Under the pieces are notes generated by a model that was not told the origin of the DNA, did no database searches, and saw nothing but the letters and a program-made list of their open reading frames with translations. Of a DNA stretch of 51,850 bases, positions 10,870 to 17,207 are shown piece after piece (the first letter of the stretch is position 1; each line of letters starts with the position of its first letter). The translations under genes were made by a program, and so were the position numbers. Where the stretch lies: the NCBI GenBank assembly GCA_026417655.1, contig JAOACS010000017.1:1-51850 (forward strand). The letters run 5' to 3'. The DNA comes from Syntrophobacterales bacterium. Its GTDB lineage: Bacteria > Desulfobacterota > Syntrophobacteria > Syntrophobacterales > Thermodesulforhabdaceae.

Positions 10870-10952
10870 GTCGTAAATAATACGGTCGTTAAAGTTTTGT
10901 TATATTAACATCTTACAACAAAACATCCTATCCTATGAGTCGTATTTAATAC
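10870..10952 (+). promoter_or_regulatory. Paired upstream sites, probable enhancer for the sigma-54 promoter
   Basis: The 320 bases 10809-11128 hold no gene. Two copies of GTCGTA-WW-TAATAC lie at 10870-10883 and 10939-10952. They match at 12 of 14 bases, are each partly palindromic (GTA...TAC), and start 69 bases apart. Between them is a perfect inverted repeat GTTTTGTT (10894-10901) and AACAAAAC (10917-10924). The copies lie about 175 and 105 bases before the predicted transcription start. That is where sigma-54 activators bind. Their role as activator sites is inference; no activator gene is in the window. Confidence 0.55.
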
Positions 10953-11019
10953 AGATTCTACCTTAAAACTACCCCCTCTAGCCACATAACTTTCTCATAA
11001 AGGCTTAACCTGTAAATAA

Positions 11020-11035
11020 TGGCAAGGAGATTGCC
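11020..11035 (+). promoter_or_regulatory. Sigma-54 (RpoN) -24/-12 promoter
   Basis: TGGCAAGGAGATTGCC matches the RpoN consensus TGGCAC-N5-TTGCW with one change. The invariant GG (11021-11022) and GC (11033-11034) are exactly 10 bases apart. It lies 94 bases before the ATG of the first CoA-transferase gene. Transcription would begin near 11046. Sigma-54 promoters need an ATP-driven activator, so the six-gene operon is probably induced by a specific signal. Confidence 0.75.
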
Positions 11036-11128
11036 TACTTATCAGGCGGAGTTTTACCCAGTAGGACTGGGGGAATTCATAGTAGAGGTTAGAGTGTTTC
11101 TTTTACGAAGTGAGAGGGAGGTTAAAGG

Positions 11129-12604
11129 ATGGCGAGAGAACCGCAAGAGATTGAAATCAAGAGCAGGGCCGATACGCTAAAGCGGAGACCATGGCCTGTA
11201 ACACCTCCTCCATCAAGGGAAGAGGTGGCCAAGGTATATGCGAAGCGTAAGGCTGAAGAATTTGGTGCCTGGTGTGAAGAAAATTTGTGGTTTCAGAATG
11301 TCTTCGAAAAGCCTGAGGCTCTTCAGGGAGTGAAGGTTTTAGAAGTTGGTCTATGGAGGATCGGTCATAAGTTCTGCGCATCACTTCTTTCGGAGCTCGG
11401 AGCGGAAGTGATTAAAATTGAGCCACCAGAGGGAGATCCTATGAGGCAGCTTACTCCCTTTGGGCGGGAAGAGTACATGCTAAAAGACAAATACAGTGGT
11501 GAACCCTGTGGACTCGAATTTATCCACGAGATGAGAAACAAATATTCCATTACCCTCAACCTCGACACCCCCGAAGGTCAGAAACTTTATAAGGGTTTAG
11601 CAGCTAGAGTAGATATTATTATTGAAGAGTATCCCCCTGGATACATGGATGAGCGTGGGATTGGTTACAGACAGCTTAGCAAGCTTAATCCTAAGCTTAT
11701 TTACTGCTGGATAGGCGAATTGGGCCAGTGGGGGCCTGAAAAGGATAGGGTTTCTAAGTTTGGACAGTGGATGCTTGATCCCTTTGGACAAGCGGCCTGT
11801 TCCTTCATTCATAATACGGGTTATCCTGAAGATTTTATGCCTAGAGGTTCAGGTGGTGATCCAACCCGTTCAGGTGTCTGGCTTGCCGACTACGTGGCTG
11901 GTGAACAGGCTGCAGTAAATATTCTTGCGGCACTCTATTATAGAGAAGAAAAGAGCCACCGAGGACAGTTTATTGAAGTAACAGGCGCTGAAGCTCTAAT
12001 GGATATACTTGACTTCGATATTTCCTGGTATGGCTTCAACGAAAGTATTAAAGCTCGAAGCGGTTCTTGGGATCCCAACCTCAATCAGTATGCTTGGAAC
12101 CCCTGCAAAGACGGTTACATGATGATTGGTGGCCAGACGGATCGTCTATGGTACCGTATTGGAATGTGCATAGAAAAGGATCTTCCAGTGTTTGGACGTC
12201 TTATTCACGAAGATCCCTTCTTAAAAGAAGTGGCAGCAAGAAATGCTTTACAGGCGCTAATTAAAACCTACACTTTGACCTCCATGTGGCTCCGAGATAT
12301 TAATCGGGTTGAAGCAGAAGAAAAACTGCTTGAGTATGAAATTGCCGCAGGACCTCTTCTTTACATTGATGAAGTCTGCGAATTTCCGCACTTCAAATAC
12401 CGTCCATGGGTTTATACCATTGAAGATGAACATTATGGGACTCTCCTCTACGCCACATCTACGAATTCATTCCAGATGAGGACTCCTGCCCGCGTTAAGT
12501 GGTTAGGCAGGCCACTTGGAAAGGACAACGGTGAAATTTATCAGAAATATCTGGGTATTGGTCCGCGTATGCAAGAAGTTTTGAAAGAAAAGGGGGTGTT
12601 ATAA
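11129..12604 (+). CDS. Family III (CaiB/BaiF) CoA-transferase-like protein, subunit 1
   Basis: Family III enzymes move CoA between acids through an aspartyl-CoA anhydride. This 491-residue protein has a family-like core from about residue 66: GVKVLEVG, then [35 protein letters not shown] and IIIEEYPPG. Asp217 in LDPFGQA aligns with the catalytic Asp of the family, and [21 protein letters not shown] is the usual following helix. A ~60-residue charged N-terminal extension and several aromatic-rich insertions make it longer than the usual 380-420 residues. GAGGGAGG precedes the ATG. TAATG couples it to the second subunit, as in two-subunit benzylsuccinate CoA-transferase (BbsE/BbsF). The substrate is unknown; a dicarboxylic or aromatic acid is only a guess. 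Confidence 0.82.
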
Positions 12605-14016
12605 TGGCGGATCCAAGAGAAGTCAGACTGGAAGATCTTCCCGGCCCCAAGAGCCGAGAAGAACTTGAGGATATGAAGGCTCCCTACGAGGAATATTGTA
12701 GAAAGTTATTCGATGTAGGGAATGAGTTCGTAAAACCGATGGCTTTAGAAGGGGTAAGGTGGCTTAGCTGTACGATGTACATCTTTACTCCCCATGCTGT
12801 GGCAAACCTAGGGGAGCTAGGTGCTGAAGTAATTAAGATTGAGTTCCCTCGAGTTGCCGACCCAATGAGGCATACATCTCCTTTCAATGAATGTTACTTT
12901 TATCCCCTTCACGATACTCGACCTAAGTCGGGAACGGGTATCGGGGTTCTTAATGCTAACGTAAATGAATACTACATCTCCCTAGACTACCATAGAAAGG
13001 AAGCTCAAGAGGTTCTCTACAAACTGGTTAAGATGAGCGATGGCCTCACCGAATGTTACAGGCCGGGAACATTTGATCGGTGGAAACAGAGCTATCGATA
13101 TCTTCAGGAAATAAACCCAAGGTTCATCTACGTCTGGGGTGGTGGTTTCGGCTATGGACCAAAGGCCTTTGGTGGTTCCTATGACATTCTTGGTCAGGCC
13201 CATGCAGGCCTTGCAAGTATTACAGGATTCCACGAAGATTTTGGAGGCCACCCAGTAAAACATAGTAACTGGTGTATAGACTGGTATTCCGGAACTCAAA
13301 TAACCATAGCGATCCTTGCTGCCCTATACTGGAGAAGGAAGACAGGGCTTGGAACCATGATAGAGTTTTCCCAAGTTCAAGCGGCAACTAGATGCTGTGG
13401 ATATACTGTGCCTCTTTACGGCCGTTTTGGTATAGTCCGTCAGCGCTGGGGTAACTGGGATACTCAGCTTTGCGTCCATGGCATCATTATTTGTGGCAAA
13501 TCCGATTATCCCGATGAAAAGAATCCACAGCTCAGAAACGAGGCCCGATATGTGATGGTAAGCGCCTTTAATGATCCAGATTTTAAGGAACTCTGCTCGG
13601 TAATAAAGAGAAATGATCTTTATGAAAAGTACAAAACCCATAAGGAACGAGTCAGAGCTGAAGCTCAGGTAGAAATCTACCGAGAACTAGAAAAATGGGC
13701 AGCCGACAAGTCCCGTTCTGAAGTGGTCCGGATTCTCACAGAGGCAGGGCTTCTTGCTGCGCCAGTTAAAAACGACAAAGAAGTTTATGAATCTGAACAC
13801 TTCCGTCAAAGAGGAACTGTCCGATGGATGGATGATCCAATGCTCGGTGACGTAATCGCTCAAAGCACCTACAGCACCGGCCTCTTTTCTGAGACCCCAA
13901 GGCGCAAGTTCTGGGATTTCCGACCCGTTGGTGCCGATAATATAAAGATCTATCATGAGCTTCTAGGCTATCCAATAAGCACCATCCAAGAATGGTACGA
14001 AAAGGGTATTATATAA
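12604..14016 (+). CDS. Family III (CaiB/BaiF) CoA-transferase-like protein, subunit 2
   Basis: A 470-residue relative of the preceding protein, sharing its start by a 1-base TAATG overlap. Core motifs are [19 protein letters not shown] at about 69-87, [28 protein letters not shown] and [13 protein letters not shown], where Asp194 is in the catalytic position (GYD/GHD motif of the family). The C-terminal [23 protein letters not shown] is the usual linker helix region. Both subunits therefore keep the aspartate. An extended N-terminus and a C-terminal tail ([20 protein letters not shown]) resemble the partner. I infer a heteromer. The pair could also be a racemase-like or CoA-thioester-binding enzyme, because CaiB-like proteins include acyl-CoA racemases. 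Confidence 0.82.
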
Positions 14017-14032: not shown

Positions 14033-14497
14033 GTGTGTGATATTATTTGGTGCAAAAAGTGCAATACGGTGAATTACCTAGATCCGTATTGCTTCTGGAA
14101 TTGGGAAGGAAAAGTGAACTGTGCCGAGTGTGGCGAGGTTTACTATATCCACATGATTCAGGGCCACATGTACAAAGGTCCTGAACCTCGCCCCGGTGAA
14201 AAACCCGACATTCATCCTCTTTATGCCGATAAGCCCTACGATGGGTATACGAATTACCCGCCAGGGGTAGAAGGTAAGACCCGTCCCTATAACTGCACCC
14301 CGCGCCATATTTATCTTGGAAGAGCCGATCAAAGAAAGTTCAGTATCAGAAACCGTCCTATGCGCGCATGGCCTCAGCCGCCTTCGGCCGGCATTGCGGG
14401 ATCGCAAGGTTTCTATTGGGACATCAAGAAGTTGAGCCCCGAGGTATGGGAAGAGTACATGGAAAAGATTAAAAAAGGCGAGGTAAGGGACTGGTAA
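14033..14497 (+). CDS. Zinc-ribbon-like protein of unknown function
   Basis: I do not recognise this 154-residue protein. The start is GTG 14033 with GGGAGG 6 bases upstream. Its N-terminus has Cys2, the pair C7-x2-C10, Cys20 and the pair C30-x2-C33, which fits a zinc ribbon or a small metal site. After it comes a Pro/Tyr/Gly-rich stretch (about 49-90) with little predicted structure, and a short helical end with SPEVWEEYMEKIKKGE. There is no signal peptide or membrane segment. It follows the CoA-transferase pair by 16 bases, and it may be an accessory or structural subunit. Zinc-ribbon subunits occur with anaerobic aromatic-degradation enzymes (BbsA, acetone-carboxylase gamma), but I cannot show homology. 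Confidence 0.7.
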   Translation: MCDIIWCKKCNTVNYLDPYCFWNWEGKVNCAECGEVYYIHMIQGHMYKGPEPRPGEKPDIHPLYADKPYDGYTNYPPGVEGKTRPYNCTPRHIYLGRADQRKFSIRNRPMRAWPQPPSAGIAGSQGFYWDIKKLSPEVWEEYMEKIKKGEVRDW

Positions 14498-14513: not shown

Positions 14514-14750
14514 ATGGAACATGCAAAGGATCTAAAACCGCATGAGTTTCTCGCCAAGATACTCGTGCCGGAGAAACAAACGAACCATATTTGTTGGAGC
14601 TGCAAGTATTTTAAACCGGTCTTGAAGGGTTCTAAGTTTCCTCCGGCTGATCTTATAGGATGGTGCAAAAAAATTCACTGGCCCTTTTATTGGTGTGTTT
14701 CGGAATATGATGTAGTAAAGAGTTGCTATGCCTATGAGAAACTGGAGTAA
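14514..14750 (+). CDS. Small five-cysteine protein, possible iron-sulfur subunit
   Basis: A 78-residue protein with five cysteines: C27-x2-C30, C51, C61 and C71, embedded in aromatic residues (ICWSCKYF, GWCKKIHWPFYWC). The C-x2-C-x20-C-x19-C spacing resembles the small beta and gamma subunits of fumarate-adding glycyl radical enzymes such as benzylsuccinate synthase, which bind a HiPIP-like [4Fe-4S] cluster. The resemblance is in spacing and size only. No glycyl radical large subunit or activase is in the window. GGGGGTG precedes the ATG, and the gene follows the zinc-ribbon gene by 16 bases. The exact family is unassigned. Confidence 0.7.
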   Translation: MEHAKDLKPHEFLAKILVPEKQTNHICWSCKYFKPVLKGSKFPPADLIGWCKKIHWPFYWCVSEYDVVKSCYAYEKLE

Positions 14751-15015
14751 TCCAGAACTTGCTAAGGTTGCCGAGATGGTGACGACCTGGAAGGAGGCCT
14801 ACTTCTCCCAGGTCGGTCCCGGCGAAGGCTGGGAAGTGCTCTGTGATGAGCTTCGTGAAGAGATTTTGGAGTTCATCTATCCCTACGTAAGAAAGCTGTA
14901 CCTTATGAAGGTTCTAGAAAAGGAAGAGTTTGAAGCGTTCCTTCACTTTTGTGATGATTCAGTGGAGGAACTTCGAAACATGATAAAGGAGAAAAACTAT
15001 GCCAGCGAAGTGTAG
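14728..15015 (+). CDS. Small acidic helical protein of unknown function
   Basis: A 95-residue acidic protein, apparently mostly helical (WEVLCDELREEILEFIYPY, VLEKEEFEAFLHFCDDSVEELRNMIKEK), with no motif I know. It overlaps the end of the five-cysteine gene by 23 bases and the start of the next gene by 17, so all three are probably co-translated. The start at 14728 has a weak AAAGAG site; ATG 14734, two codons later, is equally possible. The tight overlap argues that it is a real partner of its neighbours. Role unknown. Confidence 0.65.
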   Translation: MPMRNWSNPELAKVAEMVTTWKEAYFSQVGPGEGWEVLCDELREEILEFIYPYVRKLYLMKVLEKEEFEAFLHFCDDSVEELRNMIKEKNYASEV

Positions 15016-15490
15016 AGTAATAATTTGCGGGTTTGACCCAATGCTGGTTAGGGGATACCTGAAGACTGGAGCCAGAGCTTTATGGTGGTATCTCCCCGAT
15101 GAGATATACGAAGAATTTAAAGTAAAGCCAGGATACAAAATAAAAGGAAAACTTTTGGCTGTTTACAATCCAAAGGCCGAAATGAAGGTTGCTACACCTA
15201 CAGAAGCTCTGGAAGGGGCACCTGGGACAGTAGCTCCTCCCGATGTGCCTGGAGATCCCTTCGTATGGGATACGTCGCAAGAGACAGGTCTTGCCGTGCT
15301 TCTCCCACCCCAGACGATTATAAAGTATCAACTTACCGCCTTCCATTTTTTGGAAATCGTGATCGATTCCATAATCAAAGCAAACGGCGAGGAGATTGAG
15401 GTTTACCCAGGCGAAGAAAGGGTAACTACCAAGTGGTGGCCAGAAAACAGGATGAAGTTAGGTTACTATATTGACTTTGTGGCTCCTTAA
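14999..15490 (+). CDS. Unrecognised protein ending the CoA-transferase operon
   Basis: A 163-residue protein with AAGGAG 6 bases before its ATG. It looks like a beta-rich domain (YLPDEIYEEFKVKPGYKIKGKL, then LLAVYNPKAE), a Pro/Ala-rich linker at about 67-90, and a second segment with GLAVLLPPQTIIKYQLTAFHF and EIEVYPGE. It has one cysteine, no signal peptide and no membrane segment. I cannot place it in a family; the first segment might be a small barrel, which is a guess. It is the last gene before a strong hairpin at 15504, so it closes the six-gene unit. Confidence 0.68.
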   Translation: MPAKCRVIICGFDPMLVRGYLKTGARALWWYLPDEIYEEFKVKPGYKIKGKLLAVYNPKAEMKVATPTEALEGAPGTVAPPDVPGDPFVWDTSQETGLAVLLPPQTIIKYQLTAFHFLEIVIDSIIKANGEEIEVYPGEERVTTKWWPENRMKLGYYIDFVAP

Positions 15491-15503: not shown

Positions 15504-15537
15504 GTCACCTAGGGGAGTCTATACCCCCCTAGGTGAC
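15504..15537. terminator. Hairpin closing the CoA-transferase operon
   Basis: GTCACCTAGGGG (15504-15515) and CCCCTAGGTGAC (15526-15537) form a perfect 12-bp stem with a 10-base loop, 14 bases after the last stop of the operon. There is no T run afterwards (GATATTACAC), so it may act as a weak terminator or protect the 3' end. Confidence 0.7.
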
Positions 15538-15591: not shown

Positions 15592-16770
15592 ATGGAGATG
15601 GAGGAACTTCAAGGTTACACAGGGTGGGCTCGTCTTTCAGAAAGGCTTTCGAACAATCATCCCTTTTTTGAAAATCTATTCCTTTGGGATGGCTTTGATA
15701 TTTCATGCAACATCTATCTCTTAACAACCAGAGAGGGAGCCCTAATTATAGACCCAGGAAATGATTACACTGCCTACTATGAGCTGTTTCGCCAAAGCTC
15801 TATTATACGTCTTTGGGACATAAAAAAAATTCTTCTAACCCATGGGCATAGTGAGCACTCCCTAGGACTTTTTGAATTACTAAGAAGCTATCCCTCAATA
15901 AGAACAGGAGAAAAGAGTGTAGAGGTATATCTCCACGAGAGTGCTCCCGAGACCTTAAAAAACTTAGCATCTCAATTAGGATGCCAATTAAATTTTGTGC
16001 AAAACGACGATGTGATAACGTTAGGCGAGTTCTCTCTGATGGTTCTTCACACGCCGGGTCATACTATGGACAGCCTTTGTTTCTGGCATGAAGGTACTAA
16101 GAGTCTATTCTCAGGCGACACCGTTATCCCCTTTGCTGTAGCCTCCCCCGATCCAGTCGCAGGGGGACGTATAGATTTCCATCTTTTTTCAATGAGAAAT
16201 TTGCGAAAAAGAGACATTAGACACCTCCTCCCCGGTCACGGCGATGTAATATCCGAGGGCGTTAATTTGGTACTTGAAGGAAACTACGCTGGTTTGATTA
16301 AGAAAGTTGTTGGGCTCCAGTGCCCCTGGATGGAAGCTTCACAGTTTCTTCTGCAAAAAGGCTACCTGGAAGAAGCCCTTTTCTGCTGCGAAAAGGTCTT
16401 GCAAGAGGATTCCAAAAATCCTACCGCTCTTTACTTCAAAGCCTGTTGCCTTAATGATATGGGCCTCTTTAAGGAAGCCCTTGATACCCTAAATACACTG
16501 GGATCGGCGGAAAACAGAATGAGCGAAAACCCCCTGTATCTTATAGCCTATGGATGTGCCCTAATGGGTAATGGACAATATGAAAAAGCTATAGCCAAGT
16601 TCGATAGGGCATGTAGTATAGCTCCATCCATAGACAATGCCATGGTCTATAAGGGACTAGCCCTTTATCTGAATGGTCAAATTGATGAGGCTATGGAAAT
16701 TGAAGCCTTCAGAAAAGCCTTCGTTGGGCAGCTCAAAGAGGAGCTACTTAAACAATACCAGCGGGAGTAA
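15592..16770 (+). CDS. Metallo-beta-lactamase-fold hydrolase with C-terminal TPR repeats
   Basis: Residues 1 to about 230 are a metallo-beta-lactamase fold: IIDPG near 53, the metal motif THGHSEH at 83-89, HTPGHTMDSL, FSGDTVIP and LLPGHGD. The usual Asp of HxHxDH is Glu88 here, which could alter the second metal site. Residues ~235-390 hold three or four tetratricopeptide-like repeats (YLEEALFCCEKVLQEDSKNPTALY, QYEKAIAKFDRA). A TPR tail suggests binding to a protein partner. 392 residues, with AGGAAATTCC before the ATG. The substrate is unknown. It follows the operon hairpin, so it may be a separate unit with the next gene. Confidence 0.83.
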   Translation: MEMEELQGYTGWARLSERLSNNHPFFENLFLWDGFDISCNIYLLTTREGALIIDPGNDYTAYYELFRQSSIIRLWDIKKILLTHGHSEHSLGLFELLRSYPSIRTGEKSVEVYLHESAPETLKNLASQLGCQLNFVQNDDVITLGEFSLMVLHTPGHTMDSLCFWHEGTKSLFSGDTVIPFAVASPDPVAGGRIDFHLFSMRNLRKRDIRHLLPGHGDVISEGVNLVLEGNYAGLIKKVVGLQCPWMEASQFLLQKGYLEEALFCCEKVLQEDSKNPTALYFKACCLNDMGLFKEALDTLNTLGSAENRMSENPLYLIAYGCALMGNGQYEKAIAKFDRACSIAPSIDNAMVYKGLALYLNGQIDEAMEIEAFRKAFVGQLKEELLKQYQRE

Positions 16771-16814: not shown

Positions 16815-17207
16815 ATGACAAATCAGTTCCTTCCTACTAAAATCCCTATCTTTTTACTCTTTAGGACTCCAGAGGTTTTAGACTATTTTAGGGATCTACT
16901 GCGCAAAATCAATCAAAGTCCAATCAGCTATGAGAATGCGACCGAACTTATGGACAACATAAGTAGTCACTCTAAAGTCATAGCATTTATCGAGGACATT
17001 GTGTCCGAAGAGGAAGGAACAGGATTCTACGAGATGATTCTGGAAAAATGTCCCGGTGCCAAGATTATTCTCGTATGTAAAAAAAATCGTAGAAGACTTA
17101 TAAAGGATGCTATGGAAAAGGGAGGATATGGTTCCGTTGTGGAACCCTATGATCCATGGGAGATTACCACAATGGTTAAGCATCTTTTGGCCGACCTTTC
17201 TGAATAG
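16815..17207 (+). CDS. Degenerate response-regulator receiver-like protein
   Basis: A 130-residue single domain with the alternating pattern of a CheY-like receiver. Asp61 in IEDIVSEEEG stands in the phospho-acceptor position. The N-terminal acidic pocket is missing (FLLFRTPEV instead of VDD), and the conserved lysine before the last strand is Glu110 in VVEPYDPWE. It is therefore probably a pseudo-receiver that does not follow normal phosphorylation. GGGAG lies about 11 bases before the ATG. It ends 4 bases from the convergent gene. Identification rests on pattern rather than strong motifs. Confidence 0.55.
   Translation: MTNQFLPTKIPIFLLFRTPEVLDYFRDLLRKINQSPISYENATELMDNISSHSKVIAFIEDIVSEEEGTGFYEMILEKCPGAKIILVCKKNRRRLIKDAMEKGGYGSVVEPYDPWEITTMVKHLLADLSE

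Follow-up and report, generated by a model that had tools for sequence, protein, structure and literature searches.

The window, that is, the whole 51,850-nucleotide stretch of DNA that was analysed, belongs to a Syntrophobacterales bacterium of the Thermodesulforhabdaceae, whose genome (2.3 Mb in 31 contigs) contains dsrA. An operon headed by two CoA-transferase genes is preceded in this window by a 320-bp intergenic region, and the features of both are the following.

10870..10883, plus strand: distal activator site GTCGTAAATAATAC, predicted from the repeat match and conservation
10894..10924, no strand: inverted repeat GTTTTGTT/AACAAAAC, arms 10894-10901 and 10917-10924, not conserved
10903..10915, plus strand: putative IHF-like site TATTAACATCTTA with 1 mismatch, roughly halfway between the activator sites
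10939..10952, plus strand: proximal activator site GTCGTATTTAATAC, predicted from the repeat match and conservation
10987..10999, minus strand: putative IHF-like site TATGAGAAAGTTA (1 mismatch), between the proximal site and the promoter
11020..11035, plus strand: sigma-54 (-24/-12) promoter element TGGCAAGGAGATTGCC, read directly from the sequence and conserved in the family
11129..12604, plus strand: family III CoA-transferase, first subunit (coaA)
12604..14016, plus strand: family III CoA-transferase, second subunit (coaB), overlapping coaA by one base
14033..14497, plus strand: conserved 154-residue protein with CxxC pairs, no known family
14728..15015, plus strand: conserved 95-residue protein, no known family
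14999..15490, plus strand: conserved 163-residue protein, no known family
15592..16770, plus strand: metallo-beta-lactamase fold/TPR protein, possibly in the same operon, with a strong stem-loop just upstream
16815..17207, plus strand: receiver-like protein, possibly in the same operon

The seven genes between 11129 and 17207 form a module that recurs in nearly all sufficiently long loci among the 80 orthologous loci collected for comparison, the receiver-like gene being present often, though not always. Most of the module genes are also found together in Archaeoglobales, and the 154-residue protein is 46-48% identical between bacteria and archaea. None of the three small proteins was matched by Pfam or NCBIfam, sequence comparison with the PDB returned nothing significant, and fold comparison returned weak matches only. 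At 14514-14740, between the genes of the 154- and 95-residue proteins, there is an extra short open frame that encodes several cysteines (CWSCK...), and a perfect 15-bp stem at 15504-15537, with a T run on the minus strand only, stands between those of the 163-residue and metallo-beta-lactamase fold proteins. Many sulfate-reducing bacteria share the operon, which nevertheless marks them only loosely: dsrA occurs in some genomes that lack the operon and is missing from some that carry it. No description of the operon or of its regulator was found in the literature searched, whose coverage was partial.

An earlier note on this DNA had described a sigma-54 promoter, two upstream sites and an inverted repeat in front of the operon, and direct inspection of the sequence found all of these elements in place. 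The promoter element contains the invariant GG (11021-11022) and GC (11033-11034) separated by 10 bases, with near-consensus flanks, and its position predicts a transcription start at about 11046, the ATG of the first CoA-transferase gene being at 11129. Its sigma-54 score was not equalled once when the intergenic region was dinucleotide-shuffled 2000 times, so that the element is significant on its own. The rpoN gene, whose absence the earlier note had named as fatal to its reading, was found in the genome.

The two upstream sites are 69 bp apart and match at 12 of 14 bases. They are placed 81 bp (proximal) and 150 bp (distal) above the -24 element, at enhancer distance, and are conserved. 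It could be argued that the repeats, the inverted repeat and the promoter match are chance features of AT-rich intergenic DNA, since a 12/14 repeat arises in 12 of 100 shuffles of the region and is therefore not rare by itself, and an 8-bp inverted repeat arises in 11.8%. The repeat is convincing because it is conserved in comparisons and not by its own rarity. Chance is an extremely improbable source of the promoter and the paired sites, which are conserved across genera and families, but it does account for the inverted repeat. The perfect 8-bp arms that the earlier note had reported between the sites are present; among 20 site pairs tested, an inverted repeat is unusual only in G000, G001 and L107, with unrelated sequences. 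The inverted repeat is thus probably incidental.

The comparison within the family covers four other genomes, in which the first CoA-transferase orthologues are 86-94% identical. A strong sigma-54 element is placed at the operon in all four (TGGCAAGGAAATTGCC, TGGCAGGTTTGTTGCT, TGGCACCGACTTTGCA and TGGCAAGCAAATTGCT, loci oriented), and each has two or three GTC-N9-AC sites upstream of that element. G001 and G002 contain two GTCGTA-type sites each, 70 and 71 bp apart, G004 contains three, of which the last two are 72 bp apart, and G003 combines one GTCGTA-type site with two related GTCCAAT-type sites, its main pair being 70 bp apart. Both the DNA separating the sites and that flanking them have diverged, and the neighbour on the upstream side varies, from a prephenate dehydrogenase gene in the present genome to a tRNA-like sequence in G001. 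This pattern suggests that the sites are under selection and are not shared through recent common ancestry alone.

Beyond the family, orthologous operons across Thermodesulfobacteriota are again preceded by paired sites, with spacings of 57-79 bp, mostly 66-72. Of 32 upstream regions, 20 contain a strict GTC-N9-AC pair with a spacing of 64-82 bp; shuffling gave a mean of 0.1 and a maximum of 2. The 14-base motif of the earlier note is present twice here; as an exact 14-mer it is a local feature, and what the orthologues conserve is rGTCnnATTTnnnACA. The sites had also been described as about 6.5 helical turns apart. Given the range of spacings, a helical phase is not established: the concentration of 0.73 obtained at a period of 10.5 bp is about equalled at other periods. 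In L120, L124, L107, L155 and L220 the spacing is 57-58 or 79 bp, roughly one helical turn off the common range. Most loci of the family or with a linked regulator gene have a sigma-54-like element 79-149 bp downstream of the proximal site, and in many orthologues outside the family the -12 sequence is TTGTA or TTGAA instead of TTGCA, TTGTA being a frequent ending. The earlier expectation that sites and promoter would be kept upstream of orthologous operons is thus borne out both in the family and beyond it.

The distribution of the sites follows that of a regulator gene. About 30 of the 80 loci have, upstream and on the same strand, a gene for one particular kind of PAS-type sigma-54 activator, nearly always directly before the operon, and the recurring site pairs are almost confined to loci with this PAS-AAA+-Fis activator gene directly upstream. 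When the loci were ranked by a leave-one-out matrix, the top 35 were all family members or had the regulator gene directly upstream, and the best of the remaining loci scored below them. The same matrix found no site pair in orthologues that lack a linked regulator, those of archaea included. The second site is weak or absent in some regulator-linked loci (L119, L129, L140 and L164). That the paired sites bind a regulator of a different type, whether repressor or activator, and that the sigma-54-like element is coincidental, is improbable: the activator site is only partly symmetric and the region contains two weak sigma-70-like matches, but these are near chance level, the -24/-12 element is kept at the operon throughout the family while never arising in shuffles, and the sites track the gene of a sigma-54 activator.

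The genome encodes 14 full sigma-54 activators, one of which, here designated L034, is the best match in this genome of every operon-adjacent regulator of the PAS-AAA+-Fis kind.

contig C28:38785-41013: L034 activator gene, 743 residues, PAS-AAA+-Fis, best match to the operon-adjacent regulators

In a phylogenetic tree, L034, its four family orthologues and the operon-adjacent regulators form a clade with a support of 0.999, and the 13 other activators of the genome all fall outside it. This grouping identifies L034 as the likely regulator of the CoA-transferase operon, as judged from sequence comparison. The HTH is strongly conserved in the clade, and the recognition helix of L034 is nearly identical to that of the operon-adjacent regulators. 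The protein contains PAS, Sigma54_activat and HTH_8 domains (Pfam; the latter two being AAA+ and Fis-type HTH), with an intact GAFTGA motif and Walker A present as GENGTGKE. The earlier suggestion of an NtrC-family activator applies in the broad sense, L034 being an NtrC-type bacterial enhancer-binding protein by its AAA+ sigma-54 activation domain with GAFTGA and its Fis-type HTH; it lies outside the NtrC subgroup proper, that of two-component response regulators, as its input domain is PAS and not a receiver. Searched against Pfam, L034 and five orthologues showed PAS matches only and nothing of the receiver type, so that L034 is probably a one-component regulator.

In this genome the L034 gene is unlinked to the operon, although in relatives orthologues sit beside it: the L034 orthologue adjoins the operon in G004 and is on another contig or far away in G000, G001, G002 and G003. 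The L034 gene (8791-11016 in locus L205, contig C28) adjoins a convergent gene cluster of flagellar type, assigned by sequence recognition. This neighbourhood, together with the 13 further activators, would suit an arrangement in which another activator, such as L033 or L025, drives the sigma-54 promoter and L034 serves in another role such as flagellar control. Such an arrangement is unlikely, somewhat less so than a regulator of a different type, given that L034 is orthologous to the regulator found beside the operon, shares its recognition helix almost completely and has its G004 counterpart still next to the operon.

The target range of the activator was addressed by pattern-based scans of the genome. 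The earlier note had suggested a genome scan for its 14-base motif near other -24/-12 promoters and near an NtrC-family gene; exact matches to GTCGTAWWTAATAC are limited to the two sites, and the next-best matches, with 2 mismatches, are no more frequent than those of a reversed control. Searches for a second site pair or a single-site target elsewhere in the genome gave chance-like matches only. The activator-promoter pair seems to have a single target, and a single-target regulon is proposed.

Proteins resembling IHF alpha and beta are encoded in the genome, with scores below the curated cut-offs. The IHF-like site TATTAACATCTTA sits inside the inverted repeat, 2 bp off the midpoint between the two activator sites. 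Of 10 loci in the family and its sister family, 7 have a same-strand IHF-like core no more than 5 bp from the midpoint (shuffle mean 0.1, 0 of 500 shuffles as high); when either strand is counted, 9 of all 31 loci have a midpoint core (shuffle mean 0.7); and 6 of 15 long-gap orthologues have a minus-strand site about halfway along the gap to the promoter (against 0.4). Since the windows and thresholds were picked after the pattern was seen, and the loci are related, the placement of IHF is rated a lead. The mid-gap minus-strand sites between the proximal site and the promoter belong to L143, L108, L103, L134, L107 and L141. It is conceivable, though rather doubtful, that IHF or an IHF-like bender near the midpoint folds the two activator sites together, in which case the enhancer would be a pre-bent hairpin instead of tandem sites.

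Taken as a whole, the region is very probably the control region of the CoA-transferase operon, in which an activator of the L034 type would act from the paired sites on the sigma-54 promoter. The PAS-AAA+-Fis protein would bind both GTC-N9-AC sites, and a signal sensed by its N-terminal region would trigger activation. Subsequently, the activated L034, probably assisted by IHF as a bender of the DNA, would touch the sigma-54 RNA polymerase poised at 11020-11035 and open the promoter using ATP, with transcription beginning near 11046. Induction of the operon by its substrate is a reasonable expectation. Compared with the earlier reading, this account is more informative in that it puts a name to the activator and proposes a single-target regulon; given what seems to be a single target, the inducer would lead directly to the operon's substrate. 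The operon, which is conserved across Thermodesulfobacteriota and exists without this control in Archaeoglobales and others, is thereby assigned a regulator, a promoter and a binding motif.

Several elements of the locus resemble known systems. The two adjacent family III subunit genes, with a match to the chains of benzylsuccinate CoA-transferase, recall the heteromeric enzymes of that family, although the similarity is distant and the genes are accompanied here by unassigned small proteins. In orp of Desulfovibrio vulgaris, IHF sites are located between the activator site and the promoter, the usual place (PMC3897727). Several of the present orthologues have IHF-like sites in the same position, whereas the additional IHF-like site near the midpoint of the two activator sites is possibly an unusual feature. 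Close parallels are also the PAS-type one-component activators: PAS-type sigma-54 activators of D. vulgaris were reconstructed with linked operons, a Fis-type HTH being stated (PMC4641369), and GabR of Bacillus thuringiensis is a one-component PAS-type sigma-54 activator with a linked operon (PMC4279683). These systems share with the present one the PAS input, the AAA+ domain, the Fis-type HTH (stated for D. vulgaris), the sites above a -24/-12 promoter and a regulator gene often next to its target. On the other hand, the target operon and the site are different here, the regulator is unlinked and the pairs are mostly 66-72 bp apart. The switch is ordinary in kind and well supported.
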